A stretch of 64,000 nucleotides of DNA. It comes from Panorpa germanica (taxonomy: Eukaryota; Arthropoda; Insecta; Mecoptera; Panorpidae). Shown here piece after piece: positions 3,244 through 64,000 of the stretch. Both the position numbers and the translations under genes were made by a program. Below the pieces are notes generated by a model. That model saw nothing but the letters and a program-made list of their open reading frames with translations. It was not told the DNA's origin and searched no databases. The stretch covers positions 16,616,001-16,680,000 of the forward strand of contig OY783214.1 of assembly GCA_963678705.1 (NCBI GenBank). The letters are read 5' to 3'. Each line of letters starts with the position of its first letter. Position 1 is the stretch's first letter.

Positions 3244-3621
3244 TAAACAATATTTTCTTTTTGAATTACATGGATTAATCTAGTCGGAGGCCTTTGAACG
3301 GCTAGGCCCATGGCAGCCTCATCTTCTATGAGAGGACCTTCCTAATATATTTGTAAATATACCACTTTATATAAAAAAACATACAAAATAATGCCTACGG
3401 TGACTATAATATATTTATACTAGTGTATAGAACTTGCTATTTGAAATACCACTATCTTTTGTATAAAGAAATTCAAAAAAGAATCTAAAAAAAATTAAGT
3501 GCAAAAAATATTTACTTAAAAAACTAAATAGTGTACCTAACATTACCGAAGTAATGTAGCACGGTGCTCTACTGTTCTTAGCTAACATAACACACAAACT
3601 ATGTATGTATGTGTAGCAAAT

Positions 3622-3655
3622 ACACACACACACACATACATACATACATATATAT
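3622..3655. repeat. (CA)n then (CATA)n compound microsatellite
   Basis: ACACACACACACACAC passes directly into CATACATACATACATA and then ATATATA. The minus-strand open frame covering it is an artefact of the repeat. Confidence 0.9.
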
Positions 3656-3897
3656 AGACGTAGAGTGAATTAGTATATCTCAAAGCAAAGCAGAGAAATC
3701 ATGAAATAGAATAATAATTTAAGGGAAGACATGTGATTTGATGCGAAAGTAACACGCGAATTACGTTAAACGGTTGTACCCTTACTCAATCTCATCCCCC
3801 ATCTCTAACAAACCCCCTTCTTTTCTCCCACTCCCCATACCAATCCTTCTATATTAACCCCTTCACTACCCACTATTATAGAACACAGAAAAGCGAC

Positions 3898-3917
3898 TAC
3901 CCGCCGCCGCCGCCCGC
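3898..3917 (+). repeat. (CCG)n run
   Basis: CCGCCGCCGCCGCCCGC, a GC-only patch at the right end of a C-rich tract in AT-rich surroundings. Confidence 0.9.
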
Positions 3918-6900
3918 TTGATTCTCTTGTCTTTCCATTCTTTAACATTTACCAAAGGGTATTTTATTTATGCAGTGTTTTTATTTGATCAAAGTTTATG
4001 TAGTCAAATTGAATCATTAATTAATCATTGATTATTACTAATAAATTAAACCTTAATACTAAAAATAAAAATAAATATTTTCAAGTTGGTATACAATTTA
4101 TAAGATGATATTTTTAATTTAGTTATGATGACTTTCTGGCTATAGAGTATTTTTATTATATTCTTCATTCATTATTATTATTATTTACATGATAAATTGG
4201 ACCTTTCATTTCCTATTAGTGCATTTAATATTTTACGCAGTCCATATTACACTGTACGAATAATTTCTTATTATCACAATCGAGTATGACAGAATGATTC
4301 CTTCGTCTGACAAGTTGGGTGCTTGATGCAGCCCTCATCGTCTCGTATTTCTGTGACGTCACGTGCACGTTACTTTAACCTTTGACTCGACGACGATCTG
4401 TTGGCCTTCATGTTATAACTCAGTCTCTGTATGTTCATTTGTTTCATTTAGGGGTATATTTACCCCTTTGATGCTATTTGCTACTTGAATTTAAATGTAT
4501 TATTGTGGAATTTTAGCTCATTTCATTATTACATACACACACACACATACACAAATATCTCCTTGTCTGTCTGGCTGACATTTCTCTGTGGATACGACTC
4601 TGAGATAAACGAGATGATGTTTTGATCCTTTAAGAAGTTATTCTGTTATTATCTGGTTCTTGTCCGGCATATGATTTCATAAAATGTTTTAATTGAAATT
4701 CTGGAAATTTGATAAATATTCTCGTTCATATCACCATTTATTTGACAACACACAACCTCCTACAGTGCTAAACACAAAACATGAACATTACTGTGAATAT
4801 GATTGTGATCTCGCTCACTGTGTCCATTGATTATATTATGATTATCTCGTAAGTGTAAAGAACCTTTGCGGACACAGATGTTCCTTGAAAGACAAAGTTT
4901 ATTAGCAAATGTTATCACCGAGATGTTGTTATGACTTCCGCATTGACTATTCCGTTCCAGTAATCAATAATCATAAAAGGAATACATCTTCATCAGCATG
5001 TGTGATCATGTGTCATATAGAATCATGTCCTGTCGTTCCCCCGTTCCCGTTCCCTTTCCCGGTTCTTCATGAGCTATGCTGAATGTGTCCTGTGGCACTC
5101 ATATAGGTACCGCACAACTACACTATATATAATAATAGCATTTTTACTATTTTATATAATTCACGTCTAAAATTGTGGTTTTCCGTGCAAAGTAACAATC
5201 AACATTTTTACAACCCGACAATATTGCACTCTTGTAAGAGAAAAATAGTGTAAGAGCCAAGTTTTGTGTCTTTTTTATTGCGCCCCAAAATATCCAATAC
5301 AAGAATCCCTGAATCATCCCAGTCTCTAAAAGAAATACGAGTACCACACACAAACATCCCTGAACGGTGATCAAGGGTAGACGGGGGGTTGAAATGGATG
5401 GAAAAGCCTTTTAAACATTCACAGCTGTCATCTAAAACAAATAAAATTTGGTACATAAATGAAAATGTCATATATATCTCTCTGTGCGATGGATGGTGTG
5501 ATGGTGCAGGTATAGAGAGAGACCCACTACTCGGTGCTAGTAGCTGATGCTGGATTTATTGCCATCTCTTGTTGCTTTGATGACTTTGAAAGGTTTTTAT
5601 CATAAAATATACTAGGAACTCTGTAAAGGACGTTTACTCAGCTGAGAATTACCAAATTATTTCTATATTTTACTATCGAATACTTATTGAAAGCTTCATT
5701 TGCTTTTTACGGTGTGCATAGACATTGGATTGTGTTAAGGAATGACGTTACTCTTGTGTTTTTAGTCTTATTCTTTTAGTTGCTTATGCAATTTCTGATA
5801 TCTGAGTCGCATCTGGTAATATTTACCTACCTTACTCCCTTCACTTCTCTCCTACATTTCATTCATTAACTCCAATGCGTTGAACACTTTCAGTGGTGAA
5901 TTGTGGACGCCTAATATAAAGGACCTTGTACTCTTATTTCTCCTCAAAACATCCTTCGAAAATAAATGGATATTGTTCATAACAGAAAATCGTTGTAAAC
6001 AAGCGAACCCACTTACTAGGAACCTGTTTAAACAACATCATATAAAACTTTTATGAAAAACTATAATAATAAAAATTTGATAAGCTAAAAACAAACAAAA
6101 AATAATTTATATCAAAATTATTTAAATTTAAAACGTTACAACATTATCAGATTTCGTTAAATATTTGTTCTATTTTTTGTACTGCACTGAGTACGAGCAC
6201 TGTGTTTTGTTATGACGTGTACAAGAATATTTTGTTGAACCCCTGAAAATTTCACGTATCTTCCTAACTTTTTGTGTATATATACGTATAATGAAAATGA
6301 TTCAGCCGAAGGCACTTTTAATTTTCAAGAAATGATCTGTGTGTACAACCGGTCAAATACTTCTATTTATTTTTAGGTATATTTACAACAAATATATTTT
6401 GTAAAATTCATGAAATGTTTTACATAAAATTTGTCTACTAATTTGTAGTACCGTGTATTTTTATATTTATATATATTTGGTATTAATTCTCTATTGTTCA
6501 AGGTATATGGGAATTATGGCGACATGCCTTGTATGTAACTTTAGTTTGGGAACTCATGCATATGCTTTCTGTTATTTTTGTACGTAATATCCATTATTAA
6601 ACATGTGTTGTGTATTTATTTAAGAAGATATAAAATTATTTTCGAGAGATTGGTTATTAAAATAAATGTTCGTTTTTTATCTCAAAATGAAACTCGATTC
6701 GCACTGGAGACACGGTTGTCTTCGTCATAGACACGATTCAGGACATAGTTTGTTTCATTTTAATACCCAACAATGGAAATTGATTTGAATTATTCCAATC
6801 GTTTCGCGCTCGTGTCGTAGATATTCTAAAACGAACGAATATCGCAGATGAAGTTTTCGTATATAAACTTTCTAATATACATTTTAATATAAGTTCAACG

Positions 6901-8130: not shown

Positions 8131-8198
<68 letters not shown>
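8131..8198. repeat. (AT)34 microsatellite
   Basis: Uninterrupted AT dinucleotide run of 68 bp, the longest simple repeat in the window and able to extrude a cruciform. Its length is likely polymorphic and error-prone in assembly. Confidence 0.98.
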
Positions 8199-11187: not shown

Positions 11188-11642
11188 CAGAGGCGGCCTT
11201 AGGGTGTGACAAGCAGGGCAACCACCCGGGGACTTGCATTCTCGTGCAAGAACTCAAGTAGAAAAATTCATTGCTATATATGTATTTGAATCTCGCGCCT
11301 CGCTCTTTAGAAATCCCACTAGAATCACTGCGTATATCTTTTAAGGCATTCATGTACCTTAGTTTATCATTATTAATATTTGTCATTTTTGTGCTTGTTA
11401 ACTTTTATAAATCTTCCAATATAAAATTTTATTTCTCGTCAATTATCATCGAAAATACTTACTTACAATTTACATAAATTATACAAAGAACAAGTGCCTC
11501 GTAAAGATCTGTTGCCCGGGGCCTCGCAAAGATCTGTCGCCTCAGGGCATCGCAAAGTTCTGTCGCCCGGGGCCTCGCAACGTTCTGCCGCCCGGGGCCT
11601 CGCAAAGATCTGCTGCCCGGGGCCTTGCTAAGACCGCCCCTG
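11188..11642. mobile_element. hAT-like MITE with 8-bp target duplication
   Basis: The left end CAGAGGCGGCCTTAG and the right end CTAAGACCGCCCCTG are inverted repeats (13 of 15). They are flanked by GATGTATC (11180-11187) and GATGTAAC (11643-11650), an 8-bp duplication matching at 7 of 8. Ends of CAG(A/G)G form and 8-bp duplications are typical of hAT elements. The 455-bp body has a long AT-rich middle. Near the right end there is a minisatellite of about five 25-bp units (GCCTCGCAAAGATCTG plus a C/G-rich half, 11506-11632). No transposase is encoded. A diverged relative lies at 27007-27343. Confidence 0.85.
11506..11632 (+). repeat. 25-bp minisatellite inside the hAT-like element
   Basis: Five imperfect tandem units of 25-26 bp with the pattern GATCTGTCGCCCGGGG followed by CCTCGCAAA. 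Two units have GTTCTG instead of GATCTG. The related element at 27007 keeps only two or three units, so unit number has changed between copies. It is a strong GC-rich island in otherwise AT-rich DNA. Confidence 0.9.
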
Positions 11643-27006: not shown

Positions 27007-27343
27007 CTCGCGCAACAACCCAAGTAGAAAACTTCATTACTATATGTATTTGAATCTCGCGCCTCGATCTTTTGAAATCCCACTAGAATCACTGCGTATA
27101 TCTTTTAAGGCACTCATGTACCTTAGTTTATCATTATTAATATTTGTCGTCTTTGTGCTTGTTAACTTTTATAAAACTTCCAATATAAAATTTTATTTCT
27201 CGTCAGTTATCATTGAAAATACTTACTTACAATTGACATAAATTATACAAAGAACAAGTGTCTCGCAAAAATCTGCCACCCCGGGGCCTCGCAAAGATCT
27301 GCCACCCCGTGGCCTCGCAATGGCTAAGGCCGCCCCGCCTCTG
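27007..27343. mobile_element. Partial second copy of the 11188-11642 element
   Basis: From about 27013 the sequence follows the 11188-11642 element closely: nine substitutions over roughly 200 bp of the AT-rich middle. It then runs into two or three 25-bp minisatellite units and an end-like CTAAGGCCGCCCC (27324-27336) followed by GCCTCTG. The left terminus (CAGAGGCGG) is missing; instead GACTCGCT appears twice in the upstream flank. It is therefore a truncated or rearranged copy, in the same orientation as the first. Confidence 0.85.
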
Positions 27344-45190: not shown

Positions 45191-45466
45191 AATCAAAAAC
45201 CGGCAGTCCAAGGAAAAATAAATTGCAGATTTGGAATCAGCGTTGAATTTTACTATAGGATCCGTTTGAATTTTCCAAATTGGAGACCATCAATTTCTTT
45301 TTAAATTTTAAAGGTTAACCCCTTGTCTAATTTTTGACGAAAAAAAAGGTTTTTATTTTAACTTTTAAAGACGTATTTGTACGTATAATTTCCCGCTTAA
45401 TTCAAATCTGGTAGCCATTTTAAAATCGGTCCATCCGTTCATTATTTAGCCTTTAACCGTTGCAAC
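45191..45466 (+). repeat. Solitary diverged copy of the satellite unit
   Basis: This single segment aligns with almost the whole 277-bp unit in the same orientation and order. It contains AAAAACCGGCAGTCCA (array: AAAACCGGAAGTGCCA), GCAGATTTGGAATCAGCG (array: GCAGATTTGAAATCAGCG), GGAGACCATCAATTTCTTTT, AGGTTAACCCCTTGT, TTTCCCGCTTAATTCAAATC and GCCATTTTAAAAT, with similar spacing. It is not tandem. It continues to the right into CGGTCCATCCGTTCATTATT, which looks like the body of a dispersed insect repeat. It is either an old copy of the element that seeded the array or an ejected array unit. The divergence favours the former. Confidence 0.85.
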
Positions 45467-45899
45467 GTTCAGTAATCCGCACGGTAACTGTCGTACCTAC
45501 CTTACAATGTATATATCTCACGAACTATAAAAGATAATTAAAAAGTAATAGACATCTGCCTGTTTAACGTGTACAAGAATTCTGGGAATGGGATCTTAGA
45601 TGTTGAAATCGTTGTAAAACTAAATTTAATCAAATTGGACACAATCAATGAAAACTGTTACTTAGAACGAGAAGATTCTTTCAGTGTCAGGACTCGTGTG
45701 CAGTACTCGTGTATGACTGCTTTGAGATGACTTCTTGTGAGTTGCACGGTTCTGCGAGACCTACTTCCAATTAATTTTTATTTACGCATGGAATAACATT
45801 TTTTCGCGTAGCTTTTAATGTTTCTGTCGCCCACGCAATATCCGGATACGGAGAATTATTTCTGTTCCTTGGAAATAATTTTTCTTTATTTTCGTTACG

Positions 45900-48069: not shown

Positions 48070-48118
48070 CTACGAGCTGGGAGCTACGAGCTACGAGCTA
48101 CGAGCTACGAGCTACGAA
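48070..48118 (+). repeat. (GAGCTAC)n heptamer repeat
   Basis: About six copies of GAGCTAC with one GAGCTGG at the left. Degenerate single units (GAGCTACG) recur to the left at 48051 and to the right near 48150, showing past spread or shrinkage. Confidence 0.95.
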
Positions 48119-57325: not shown

Positions 57326-57848
57326 CGTCTTGAGACCATAAGATGGCTAAGATACTTGCTCGTATCTGTAACAGTCAGTCAGATGCTGCTACGAGACATG
57401 GATACTGCCAGTCAAATGTAGGAGCAGTGTGCATTTAAGAATAATCTTTTGAGACATATCTTTTTAAAAAATAAAGAAGCTTTTTAATTATTTAATATTA
57501 GCATATTTCTAGTTTTTCCCGCTGATTTCATATCTGAAAACCATTTTAAAATATTTCCATTATTTAACTTTTGAAACGCTATTAACTCGAAAACCGGAAG
57601 TGCCACCAAAAAATAAAATGCAGATTTGAAATCAGCGTAAAGTTTTACGCTAAGCACCGTTATAAATTTTACAATCGGAGACCATCAATTTTTTATCAAA
57701 TTTTAGAGGTTAACCCCTTATAAAATTTTAATTTTTTTTTATAAAATTAAAATTTTTTTTCAACTTTGAAATATGTTTTTGAACGTACTTTTTCCCGCTG
57801 ATTCAAAATCTGGAAACCATTTTAAAATATTTCCATTATTTAACTCTT

Positions 57849-58069
57849 GAAACGCTGTTAACTCGAAAACCGGAAGTGCCACCAAAAAATAAAATGCTGA
57901 TTTGAAATCATAAGGTTAATTTTATAAGGTTAACCCCTTATAAAATTTTAAATTTTTTTTATAAAATTACAAAATTTTTTTCAACTTTAAAATATATTTT
58001 TGAACGTACTTTTTTCCACTGATTCCAAATCTGAAAACCATTTTAAAATATTTCCATTATTTAACTCTT
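57849..58069 (+). repeat. 221-bp variant satellite unit, copy 1
   Basis: Second unit of the array. It is 56 bp shorter than its neighbours because 73 bp, including the GCGTAAA/TTTACGC near-palindrome, is replaced by a 17-bp stretch (TAAGGTTAATTTTATAA) resembling the adjacent flank. It also carries private substitutions (CACTGATTCC instead of CGCTGATTCA near its end, AATATATTTTT instead of AATATGTTTTT). The second variant at 60563 shares all of these, so both descend from one mutated unit. Confidence 0.95.
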
Positions 58070-60562
58070 GAAACGCTGTTAACTCGAAAACCGGAAGTGC
58101 CACCAAAAAATAAAATGCAGATTTGAAATCAGCGTAAAGTTTTACGCTAAGCACCGTTATAAATTTTACAATCGGAGACCATCAATTTTTTATCAAATTT
58201 TAGAGGTTAACCCCTTATAAAATTTTAAATTTTTTTTATAAAATTAAAATTTTTTTTTCAACTTTGAAATATGTTTTTGAACGTACTTTTTCCCGCTGAT
58301 TCAAAATCTGGAAACCATTTTAAAATATTTCCATTATTTAACTCTTGAAACGCTGTTAACTCGAAAACCGGAAGTGCCACCAAAAAATAAAATGCAGATT
58401 TGAAATCAGCGTAAAGTTTTACGCTAAGCACCGTTATAAATTTTACAATCGGAGACCATCAATTTTTTATCAAATTTTAGAGGTTAACCCCTTATAAAAT
58501 TTTAAATTTTTTTTATAAAATTAAAATTTTTTTTTCAACTTTGAAATATGTTTTTGAACGTACTTTTTCCCGCTGATTCAAAATCTGGAAACCATTTTAA
58601 AATATTTCCATTATTTAACTCTTGAAACGCTGTTAACTCGAAAACCGGAAGTGCCACCAAAAAATAAAATGCAGATTTGAAATCAGCGTAAAGTTTTACG
58701 CTAAGCACCGTTATAAATTTTACAATCGGAGACCATCAATTTTTTATCAAATTTTAGAGGTTAACCCCTTATAAAATTTTAAATTTTTTTTATAAAATTA
58801 AAATTTTTTTTTCAACTTTGAAATATGTTTTTGAACGTACTTTTTCCCGCTGATTCAAAATCTGGAAACCATTTTAAAATATTTCCATTATTTAACTCTT
58901 GAAACGCTGTTAACTCGAAAACCGGAAGTGCCACCAAAAAATAAAATGCAGATTTGAAATCAGCGTAAAGTTTTACGCTAAGCACCGTTATAAATTTTAC
59001 AATCGGAGACCATCAATTTTTTATCAAATTTTAGAGGTTAACCCCTTATAAAATTTTAAATTTTTTTTATAAAATTAAAATTTTTTTTTCAACTTTGAAA
59101 TATGTTTTTGAACGTACTTTTTCCCGCTGATTCAAAATCTGGAAACCATTTTAAAATATTTCCATTATTTAACTCTTGAAACGCTGTTAACTCGAAAACC
59201 GGAAGTGCCACCAAAAAATAAAATGCAGATTTGAAATCAGCGTAAAGTTTTACGCTAAGCACCGTTATAAATTTTACAATCGGAGACCATCAATTTTTTA
59301 TCAAATTTTAGAGGTTAACCCCTTATAAAATTTTAAATTTTTTTTATAAAATTAAAATTTTTTTTTCAACTTTGAAATATGTTTTTGAACGTACTTTTTC
59401 CCGCTGATTCAAAATCTGGAAACCATTTTAAAATATTTCCATTATTTAACTCTTGAAACGCTGTTAACTCGAAAACCGGAAGTGCCACCAAAAAATAAAA
59501 TGCAGATTTGAAATCAGCGTAAAGTTTTACGCTAAGCACCGTTATAAATTTTACAATCGGAGACCATCAATTTTTTATCAAATTTTAGAGGTTAACCCCT
59601 TATAAAATTTTAAATTTTTTTTATAAAATTAAAATTTTTTTTTCAACTTTGAAATATGTTTTTGAACGTACTTTTTCCCGCTGATTCAAAATCTGGAAAC
59701 CATTTTAAAATATTTCCATTATTTAACTCTTGAAACGCTGTTAACTCGAAAACCGGAAGTGCCACCAAAAAATAAAATGCAGATTTGAAATCAGCGTAAA
59801 GTTTTACGCTAAGCACCGTTATAAATTTTACAATCGGAGACCATCAATTTTTTATCAAATTTTAGAGGTTAACCCCTTATAAAATTTTAAATTTTTTTTA
59901 TAAAATTAAAATTTTTTTTTCAACTTTGAAATATGTTTTTGAACGTACTTTTTCCCGCTGATTCAAAATCTGGAAACCATTTTAAAATATTTCCATTATT
60001 TAACTCTTGAAACGCTGTTAACTCGAAAACCGGAAGTGCCACCAAAAAATAAAATGCAGATTTGAAATCAGCGTAAAGTTTTACGCTAAGCACCGTTATA
60101 AATTTTACAATCGGAGACCATCAATTTTTTATCAAATTTTAGAGGTTAACCCCTTATAAAATTTTAAATTTTTTTTATAAAATTAAAATTTTTTTTTCAA
60201 CTTTGAAATATGTTTTTGAACGTACTTTTTCCCGCTGATTCAAAATCTGGAAACCATTTTAAAATATTTCCATTATTTAACTCTTGAAACGCTGTTAACT
60301 CGAAAACCGGAAGTGCCACCAAAAAATAAAATGCAGATTTGAAATCAGCGTAAAGTTTTACGCTAAGCACCGTTATAAATTTTACAATCGGAGACCATCA
60401 ATTTTTTATCAAATTTTAGAGGTTAACCCCTTATAAAATTTTAAATTTTTTTTATAAAATTAAAATTTTTTTTTCAACTTTGAAATATGTTTTTGAACGT
60501 ACTTTTTCCCGCTGATTCAAAATCTGGAAACCATTTTAAAATATTTCCATTATTTAACTCTT

Positions 60563-60783
60563 GAAACGCTGTTAACTCGAAAACCGGAAGTGCCACCAAA
60601 AAATAAAATGCTGATTTGAAATCATAAGGTTAATTTTATAAGGTTAACCCCTTATAAAATTTTAAATTTTTTTTATAAAATTACAAAATTTTTTTCAACT
60701 TTAAAATATATTTTTGAACGTACTTTTTTCCACTGATTCCAAATCTGAAAACCATTTTAAAATATTTCCATTATTTAACTCTT
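60563..60783 (+). repeat. 221-bp variant satellite unit, copy 2
   Basis: Identical over its length, as far as I can compare by eye, to the variant at 57849. The two starts are 2714 bp apart, which equals one 221-bp unit plus nine 277-bp units. At least ten full-length units follow on the right without another variant, so the pair marks one block duplication rather than a regular higher-order period. Confidence 0.95.
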
Positions 60784-63700
60784 GAAACGCTGTTAACTCG
60801 AAAACCGGAAGTGCCACCAAAAAATAAAATGCAGATTTGAAATCAGCGTAAAGTTTTACGCTAAGCACCGTTATAAATTTTACAATCGGAGACCATCAAT
60901 TTTTTATCAAATTTTAGAGGTTAACCCCTTATAAAATTTTAAATTTTTTTTATAAAATTAAAATTTTTTTTTCAACTTTGAAATATGTTTTTGAACGTAC
61001 TTTTTCCCGCTGATTCAAAATCTGGAAACCATTTTAAAATATTTCCATTATTTAACTCTTGAAACGCTGTTAACTCGAAAACCGGAAGTGCCACCAAAAA
61101 ATAAAATGCAGATTTGAAATCAGCGTAAAGTTTTACGCTAAGCACCGTTATAAATTTTACAATCGGAGACCATCAATTTTTTATCAAATTTTAGAGGTTA
61201 ACCCCTTATAAAATTTTAAATTTTTTTTATAAAATTAAAATTTTTTTTTCAACTTTGAAATATGTTTTTGAACGTACTTTTTCCCGCTGATTCAAAATCT
61301 GGAAACCATTTTAAAATATTTCCATTATTTAACTCTTGAAACGCTGTTAACTCGAAAACCGGAAGTGCCACCAAAAAATAAAATGCAGATTTGAAATCAG
61401 CGTAAAGTTTTACGCTAAGCACCGTTATAAATTTTACAATCGGAGACCATCAATTTTTTATCAAATTTTAGAGGTTAACCCCTTATAAAATTTTAAATTT
61501 TTTTTATAAAATTAAAATTTTTTTTTCAACTTTGAAATATGTTTTTGAACGTACTTTTTCCCGCTGATTCAAAATCTGGAAACCATTTTAAAATATTTCC
61601 ATTATTTAACTCTTGAAACGCTGTTAACTCGAAAACCGGAAGTGCCACCAAAAAATAAAATGCAGATTTGAAATCAGCGTAAAGTTTTACGCTAAGCACC
61701 GTTATAAATTTTACAATCGGAGACCATCAATTTTTTATCAAATTTTAGAGGTTAACCCCTTATAAAATTTTAAATTTTTTTTATAAAATTAAAATTTTTT
61801 TTTCAACTTTGAAATATGTTTTTGAACGTACTTTTTCCCGCTGATTCAAAATCTGGAAACCATTTTAAAATATTTCCATTATTTAACTCTTGAAACGCTG
61901 TTAACTCGAAAACCGGAAGTGCCACCAAAAAATAAAATGCAGATTTGAAATCAGCGTAAAGTTTTACGCTAAGCACCGTTATAAATTTTACAATCGGAGA
62001 CCATCAATTTTTTATCAAATTTTAGAGGTTAACCCCTTATAAAATTTTAAATTTTTTTTATAAAATTAAAATTTTTTTTTCAACTTTGAAATATGTTTTT
62101 GAACGTACTTTTTCCCGCTGATTCAAAATCTGGAAACCATTTTAAAATATTTCCATTATTTAACTCTTGAAACGCTGTTAACTCGAAAACCGGAAGTGCC
62201 ACCAAAAAATAAAATGCAGATTTGAAATCAGCGTAAAGTTTTACGCTAAGCACCGTTATAAATTTTACAATCGGAGACCATCAATTTTTTATCAAATTTT
62301 AGAGGTTAACCCCTTATAAAATTTTAAATTTTTTTTATAAAATTAAAATTTTTTTTTCAACTTTGAAATATGTTTTTGAACGTACTTTTTCCCGCTGATT
62401 CAAAATCTGGAAACCATTTTAAAATATTTCCATTATTTAACTCTTGAAACGCTGTTAACTCGAAAACCGGAAGTGCCACCAAAAAATAAAATGCAGATTT
62501 GAAATCAGCGTAAAGTTTTACGCTAAGCACCGTTATAAATTTTACAATCGGAGACCATCAATTTTTTATCAAATTTTAGAGGTTAACCCCTTATAAAATT
62601 TTAAATTTTTTTTATAAAATTAAAATTTTTTTTTCAACTTTGAAATATGTTTTTGAACGTACTTTTTCCCGCTGATTCAAAATCTGGAAACCATTTTAAA
62701 ATATTTCCATTATTTAACTCTTGAAACGCTGTTAACTCGAAAACCGGAAGTGCCACCAAAAAATAAAATGCAGATTTGAAATCAGCGTAAAGTTTTACGC
62801 TAAGCACCGTTATAAATTTTACAATCGGAGACCATCAATTTTTTATCAAATTTTAGAGGTTAACCCCTTATAAAATTTTAAATTTTTTTTATAAAATTAA
62901 AATTTTTTTTTCAACTTTGAAATATGTTTTTGAACGTACTTTTTCCCGCTGATTCAAAATCTGGAAACCATTTTAAAATATTTCCATTATTTAACTCTTG
63001 AAACGCTGTTAACTCGAAAACCGGAAGTGCCACCAAAAAATAAAATGCAGATTTGAAATCAGCGTAAAGTTTTACGCTAAGCACCGTTATAAATTTTACA
63101 ATCGGAGACCATCAATTTTTTATCAAATTTTAGAGGTTAACCCCTTATAAAATTTTAAATTTTTTTTATAAAATTAAAATTTTTTTTTCAACTTTGAAAT
63201 ATGTTTTTGAACGTACTTTTTCCCGCTGATTCAAAATCTGGAAACCATTTTAAAATATTTCCATTATTTAACTCTTGAAACGCTGTTAACTCGAAAACCG
63301 GAAGTGCCACCAAAAAATAAAATGCAGATTTGAAATCAGCGTAAAGTTTTACGCTAAGCACCGTTATAAATTTTACAATCGGAGACCATCAATTTTTTAT
63401 CAAATTTTAGAGGTTAACCCCTTATAAAATTTTAAATTTTTTTTATAAAATTAAAATTTTTTTTTCAACTTTGAAATATGTTTTTGAACGTACTTTTTCC
63501 CGCTGATTCAAAATCTGGAAACCATTTTAAAATATTTCCATTATTTAACTCTTGAAACGCTGTTAACTCGAAAACCGGAAGTGCCACCAAAAAATAAAAT
63601 GCAGATTTGAAATCAGCGTAAAGTTTTACGCTAAGCACCGTTATAAATTTTACAATCGGAGACCATCAATTTTTTATCAAATTTTAGAGGTTAACCCCTT

Positions 63701-64000
63701 ATAAAATTTTAAATTTTTTTTATAAAATTAAAATTTTTTTTCAACTTTGAAATATGTTTTTGAACGTACTTTTTCCCGCTGATTCAAAATCTGGAAACCA
63801 TTTTAAAATATTTCCATTATTTAACTCTTGAAACGCTGTTAACTCGAAAACCGGAAGTGCCACCAAAAAATAAAATGCAGATTTGAAATCAGCGTAAAGT
63901 TTTACGCTAAGCACCGTTATAAATTTTACAATCGGAGACCATCAATTTTTTATCAAATTTTAGAGGTTAACCCCTTATAAAATTTTAAATTTTTTTTATA

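Follow-up and report, generated by a model that had tools for sequence, protein, structure and literature searches.

Several systems are known in which a satellite DNA is linked to a transposon. In Tribolium castaneum, the TCAST satellite occurs together with scattered terminal inverted repeat (TIR) elements that carry about one monomer and are present on all chromosomes; these elements are often truncated, have an average pairwise divergence of 12.7% and were suggested to be mariner/Tc1 (PMC3411249). In Xenopus, miDNA4 (Xenopus tropicalis) is a Tc1/mariner miniature inverted-repeat transposable element (MITE) with a satellite, and Xstir is a further case (PMC12628747, PMC9659126). In Drosophila virilis a DNA transposon (Tetris/TIR-220) supplied satellite building blocks (PMC4079207, PMC9659126), and mollusc Helentrons have satellite-like repeats in short arrays on scattered mobile elements (PMC7492417, PMC5139131). 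Reviews also name Messor ants and others (PMC12628747, PMC9659126). The link between satellites and transposons is already known, and a repeat family from a 64,000-bp stretch of Panorpa germanica DNA (contig OY783214.1, positions 16,616,001 to 16,680,000; the window) adds another case. An earlier note on the window had proposed that its satellite came from a dispersed element by a route seldom seen; with TCAST, Xstir, miDNA4 and Tetris published, this route is not rare. In the literature searched, to which any statement on absence from print is limited, the terminus string of the Panorpa family returned unrelated papers only, and "277 bp" was absent from the papers listed for it.

The window contains part of a 277-bp satellite array and, 12 kb from it, a single diverged copy of the satellite unit. 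Below, W is the lone copy, U the 277-bp unit, D, A and B are groups of units, L0xx are loci and C numbers are contigs, the window itself lying on C11. With confidence only just above even, W is read as a truncated fossil of a TIR transposon family, a related lineage of which expanded into satellite type A. The features concerned are as follows:

45193 to 45448, plus strand: truncated copy of the satellite-like unit U, scattered subfamily D, unit phases 2-249
45437 to 45536, plus strand: beginning of block X, a block that comes after U in several of the other scattered copies
57463 to 64000, plus strand: 277-bp satellite array, type A, with its start between 57463 and 57511
57753 to 63325, plus strand: array stretch repeated at a 2714-bp offset, with an exact run of 2859 bases

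TCAST resembles the Panorpa family in combining a satellite with scattered, often truncated TIR elements that carry about one monomer; the arrangement, in which a TIR transposon contains a monomer and the same genome has free arrays, recurs in Panorpa as an arrangement, not by sequence. The TCAST satellite is pericentromeric, whereas the Panorpa type A arrays lie near contig ends, and it is contained in ~269-bp TIRs in which the monomer is partly inverted, with ACT duplications, whereas the Panorpa unit is internal and direct, with TA ends. miDNA4 and Xstir are likewise described as non-autonomous TIR elements with an internal repeat as one or several monomers and with related free arrays; the Panorpa family has the extra blocks X, K and M in cyclic order, and the likeness is one of description, not of sequence. 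Tetris shares with the Panorpa case the link of a DNA transposon to a satellite, but it is a foldback element and its satellite consists of the TIR repeats, whereas the Panorpa module is internal. The mollusc Helentrons share short arrays of satellite-like units on scattered elements; their carriers are Helitrons/Helentrons, whereas a subset of the Panorpa family has inverted termini.

W (window 45193-45434) aligned to the 277-bp array consensus on the plus strand at 75.0% identity over 252 columns (11 gap positions, E 1.95e-42), and its local alignment score of 196 stood against a maximum of 50 among 1000 dinucleotide shuffles. The array-unit search covered positions 1-57500 of the window, where the runner-up place had an E of 0.008; W is single there. 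Homology to U was confined to about 45193-45448 (phases 2-249), and homology to the scattered family ran on past U to 45536, with W matching a 681-bp reference derived from L009 at 341-643 and then at 51-102. The diverged single copy that the earlier note had seen near 45191, in array orientation and embedded in longer repeat-like sequence, was therefore real and its similarity well above chance level. Its limits of 45191 to 45466 were nearly right.

Using W as query, at least 139 matches, arrays included, were found in the 464-Mb assembly (38 of 731 candidates scored). The fetched sample comprised 26 scattered loci (L009-L034) picked by similarity to W, eight array stretches (L035-L042) and three C11 stretches (L043-L045); by hand count, at least 23 more scattered places from the search with the 681-bp reference lay outside it. 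The family was not confined to tandem arrays, since scattered copies occurred across the assembly, and their homology reached beyond the unit into blocks X, K and M and a 5' block. By profile mapping, nine of the 26 loci contained less than 1.0 unit, 13 contained 1.0-1.7 units and four contained more (L012, L014, L023, L034). Two or more unit pieces were present in 23 of the 26, typically from phase ~150-200 to 263 and then from 1 to ~130-263.

Termini were found in a subset of these loci. The 5' flank block was common to L017, L020, L022, L027 and L030, and in L022 and L021 it recurred, inverted, on the 3' side of U. The scan for the terminus TACAGGGTGTTTGG, in either orientation, covered 335,135 bases (37 sequences, made up of the window and 36 loci). 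At up to one mismatch it gave seven matches, in six of the 26 scattered loci, each on the side expected and separated from a unit piece by 31-340 bp. The terminus-bearing relatives start TACAGGGTGTTTGGTAGC... or finish ...GCTACCAAACACCCTGTA, adjoining TA. L022 contained a complete element (3258-3644, 387 bp) that encloses 0.83 unit and is edged by TA on each side; its inverted ends had exact cores, in arms that were 39 bp long and 84.6% identical. L027 contained both ends, the 3' one with three mismatches, while L017, L020, L021 and L030 each contained a single end. L022 and L027 thus have the terminal inverted repeats of a MITE or non-autonomous TIR transposon. TA ended the terminus at six of the seven core matches (L030 has CA), though TA could be part of the motif; in L022 and L027 it stood at either end. 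Four terminal pieces (L017, L020, L027, L022), translated in all six frames, gave many stops and no evident gene, with no family search made.

The six terminus-bearing copies contained 0.76-1.07 unit each (1.41 in L020 by profile), which ruled out intact copies with 1.2-1.3 units. In them the unit was opened at phase ~170-200, unlike in W, and contained a unit-to-unit junction. We read the family as a non-autonomous DNA transposon, now fossil, that carries about one unit of the satellite; its superfamily is probably Tc1/mariner-like. Helitrons and Helentrons are marked by a 5' TC, a 3' CTRR with a hairpin, and no TIR; the inverted ends of L022 speak against such a carrier.

Homology between loci reached up to ~350 bp beyond the unit in both directions, with isolated matches further out. 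The common blocks were X (~155 bp), K (~68 bp) and a short minisatellite, M, around TTTTTCGCGGCGAAAATATTA. X as query gave at least 41 matches (40 of 364 candidates scored), and the 681-bp reference, which comprises X, K, a part unit, a unit and the start of X, gave at least 93 (40 of 1134 candidates scored); C21:38009259-38009811 matched reference 51-618 at 80%. Block order was cyclic: X came before U in L009, L018 and L028, and after U in W, L021 and L024, the last a very diverged copy. L009 (2930-3522, turned orientation) contained one full U-X-K turn with the same sequence, AACTGTCGCAC, at start and end, and looks as if a circle had been inserted. Exact direct repeats of the target-duplication kind at U/X boundaries did not exceed 6 bases in 25 loci (W included; L014 and L034 excluded).

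Several junctions were common to distant loci. The passage from unit phase 200 to new sequence and M was common to L019 (C6), L021 (C19), L027 (C7) and L029 (C17), and this junction, on four contigs, is a derived one. L033 (C17) and C12:12468k had in common a deletion that runs from reference 480 to 581, and both ended at 626. The leading part-unit (Ua) formed its own class in 11 loci, with a mean pair score of 64.3 (55 pairs), compared with 52.2 for the trailing part-unit (10 pairs from five loci, one not D) and 40.6 between the classes. The common junctions show that the family spread as a unit; a fixed architecture on several contigs is as a mobile element would give, and transposition is the likely means of spread.

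The relation of W to the array was examined using units that cover phases 20-190 (119 units, 31 sequences). Group A contained the window array and L036-L042, group B the array L035 (C21:22.12 Mb), and group D ten loci: L009, L010, L015, L017-L021, L029 and W; the remaining loci were treated as the rest. The identity of W was 0.939 to the D consensus, of which it supplied one tenth, 0.743 to A and 0.783 to B. D copies were 0.854-0.944 identical to the D consensus, a divergence of 6-15% per copy with a median of 7%. Consensus identities were 0.789 (D-A), 0.844 (D-B) and 0.771 (A-B), and among 199 sites A was the odd one out at 23, B at 12 and D at 10. Five short loci looked D-like in pairwise comparison of their main pieces (82-94% to W, 79-93% to L009).

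In an unrooted unit tree (at most three units per locus, ultrafast bootstrap), D formed a bipartition at 82, A grouped with one L014 unit at 100, and A grouped with the L014 unit and L026 at 99. The nearest scattered relatives of the array in the sample were L014 (C18) and L026 (C12), with W outside the array clade. As these closest relatives are on other contigs, the 12-kb nearness of W and the array is probably incidental. The ancestor-like role that the earlier note gave to W was not supported: at 93.9% identity to D and 74.3% to the array consensus, W appears from the alignments to be a cousin of the window array and not its direct ancestor. A diverged single copy beside an array need not be that array's ancestor. 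The type A arrays are a separate, younger branch. W is 433 kb from the contig end, the sole exception among the ten D copies, as the other nine are more than 2.4 Mb away.

The window array extends beyond the window to about C11:16681495, for a total of ~8 kb and ~30 units. Among 12 fixed consensus frames, ten were identical to the consensus, the first had 13 differences and the last 130, the last being out of register after a shortened unit. Type A units were 93-99.6% identical within a stretch, and the window array, like a satellite, belongs to homogeneous tandem arrays at several loci. The 2714-bp offset at which it repeats itself corresponds to about ten units, one of them shortened to 220 bp; this self-repeat reflects a recent unequal exchange or an assembly artefact.

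The array search of the 464-Mb assembly gave at least 253 matches (39 of 1028 candidates scored). Type A clusters were merged by hand from the matches listed and the arrays of the W search, some with one or two listed units. Among the matches listed, all 13 type A clusters fell within 2.5 Mb of a contig end, where 3.6 would be expected, and 10 of the 13 within 1.1 Mb, against an expectation of 1.6; this clustering was reached in 0 of 20,000 simulations, with contigs taken as chromosomes, the lengths of C3 and C14 as lower bounds and the type B array not counted as A. Scattered copies were within 1.1 Mb of a contig end in six of 27 cases (3.1 expected), which 1562 of 20,000 simulations reached. 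The type B array (L035) contained 26 full units, 88% alike, far from the ends of a 48-Mb contig; it is older than the listed type A arrays and unlike them in position.

We favour the direction from element to satellite. A non-autonomous element with about one unit would have spread and then decayed. In several copies the unit segment from phase ~170 lies at both module ends, about one unit apart; in L017 and L020 a segment around GTATTTGTACGTAGAATTT was found near both module ends. Such repeated ends may have been a substrate for unequal exchange or rolling-circle copying, and a related lineage lacking the outer blocks may have expanded in tandem into satellite type A near chromosome ends, including the window array. 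Both this mechanism of tandem expansion and its direction are what we infer. For the origin from a dispersed element proposed in the earlier note, this means that a scattered, extended, unit-containing element exists, with termini in a subset, and that the proposed direction is the favoured one.

L014 (C18:1.465 Mb) is a better candidate than W for a transitional locus. In its turned orientation (3778-5048), older-type units enclosed an A-type stretch from 4237 to ~4665. The unit at 3898 was 0.83 identical to D and 0.75 to A, the unit at 4363 was 0.77 and 0.94, and the unit at 4637 was 0.86 and 0.77, respectively. The switch of type falls inside a unit; gene conversion or insertion would look alike. 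That one genome keeps the whole series, from a TIR transposon with about one unit and repeated module ends, through the mixed locus at C18:1.465 Mb, to young arrays near the ends of many chromosomes, is a tentative proposal, on present evidence rather doubtful. If true, each step by which a transposon module became a satellite of chromosome ends could be read. A satellite and a mobile element with a common module are in any case found in one assembly, which has a complete element, fossil copies, the mixed locus and arrays near contig ends, and the coexisting forms make the order of events testable with related species.

Several observations weigh against the favoured explanation. At up to one mismatch, 20 of the 26 scattered loci had no terminus, nor had W, for which reason W is taken as a fragment; its two matches at three mismatches lay on the wrong side, over 1.2 kb upstream. 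These missing termini are read as truncation. In L019 a two-mismatch match was far upstream on the unexpected side, and at three mismatches unrelated places match too, a plain shuffle of the window giving 2.6 such matches per 64 kb. The cyclic block order is not explained by a simple linear element and is partly unexplained. X, M and K were absent from the eight array stretches of the sample and from the left side of the window array, and so was any terminus at up to one mismatch. The D bipartition support is only 82, and the subfamily alignment left out L022, L027, L028, L030 and L033 as too short, of which L022, L027 and L030 bear termini. A was equally close to both part-unit classes (Ua and the trailing copy), so that no direct derivation is visible. 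Because terminus-bearing copies contain about one unit, the argument from a ready-made duplication is slightly weaker, and our confidence was lowered by a shade. Finally, some scattered copies outside D hold 1-4 units and lack termini, and the tandem form may therefore be as old.

These last copies bear on the best surviving alternative, in which an old tandem repeat U came first, a TIR transposon captured about one unit and W is a relic of the carrier. This is possible, though we give it clearly less weight. The non-D loci just named would fit it, as would the resemblance of L014 and L026 to the arrays, the array-like unit-to-unit junction in terminus-bearing copies, and the old type B array at C21:22.12 Mb (88% within), away from contig ends. 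Against capture, X already follows U in the very diverged L024. D and B are also 84% identical and either is 77-79% identical to A, which alone is odd at 23 of 199 sites, compared with 10 for D; the closeness of D to B and these odd sites suggest that A is the most derived form, the tree being unrooted.

Less probable is that the scattered copies are pieces of an old tandem repeat of ~600 bp (U-X-K-M) released through extrachromosomal circles, with the TIRs belonging to a separate nested or inserted transposon. The cyclic order, the full turn of L009 with the same start and end point, the 685-bp spacing of X copies at C21:38.01 Mb and joined turns at C1:22.967 and C12:9.797 Mb are what a long-period repeat would leave, but all seven termini at up to one mismatch in 335 kb are near U with the right polarity, and L022 holds U between exact inverted ends. 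It is very improbable that W is a stray monomer of the nearby array, moved by short-range recombination or circular DNA, for although it has the same orientation and is 12 kb off, its identity is up to 88% with other scattered copies and 75% with the array, it carries X, a block absent from the array stretches searched, and it falls outside the array clade.

Some further candidates and neighbouring repeats were recorded alongside the transposon family. Block X as a diverged U was rejected (score 19, shuffle mean 20). U as an imperfect palindrome, a candidate from minus-strand profile matches, was also rejected: its self reverse-complement scores were within shuffles, 39 and 18 of 300 reaching them, and the fold z-score of U (-1.0) gave no support. 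The 25-bp GCCTCGCAAAG minisatellite beside L028 and L033 was not part of the family, but a separate dispersed repeat. Two copies of another dispersed repeat ending in a 25-bp minisatellite, GCCTCGCAAAGATCTGTCGCCCGGG, are found in the window at 11401-11642 and 27165-27336; this repeat lies next to copies of the scattered unit family in L028 and L033, and L014, L032 and L011 contain it too. The window also contains a perfect (AT)34 run at 8131-8198 and a seven-copy CTACGAG minisatellite at 48070-48117.
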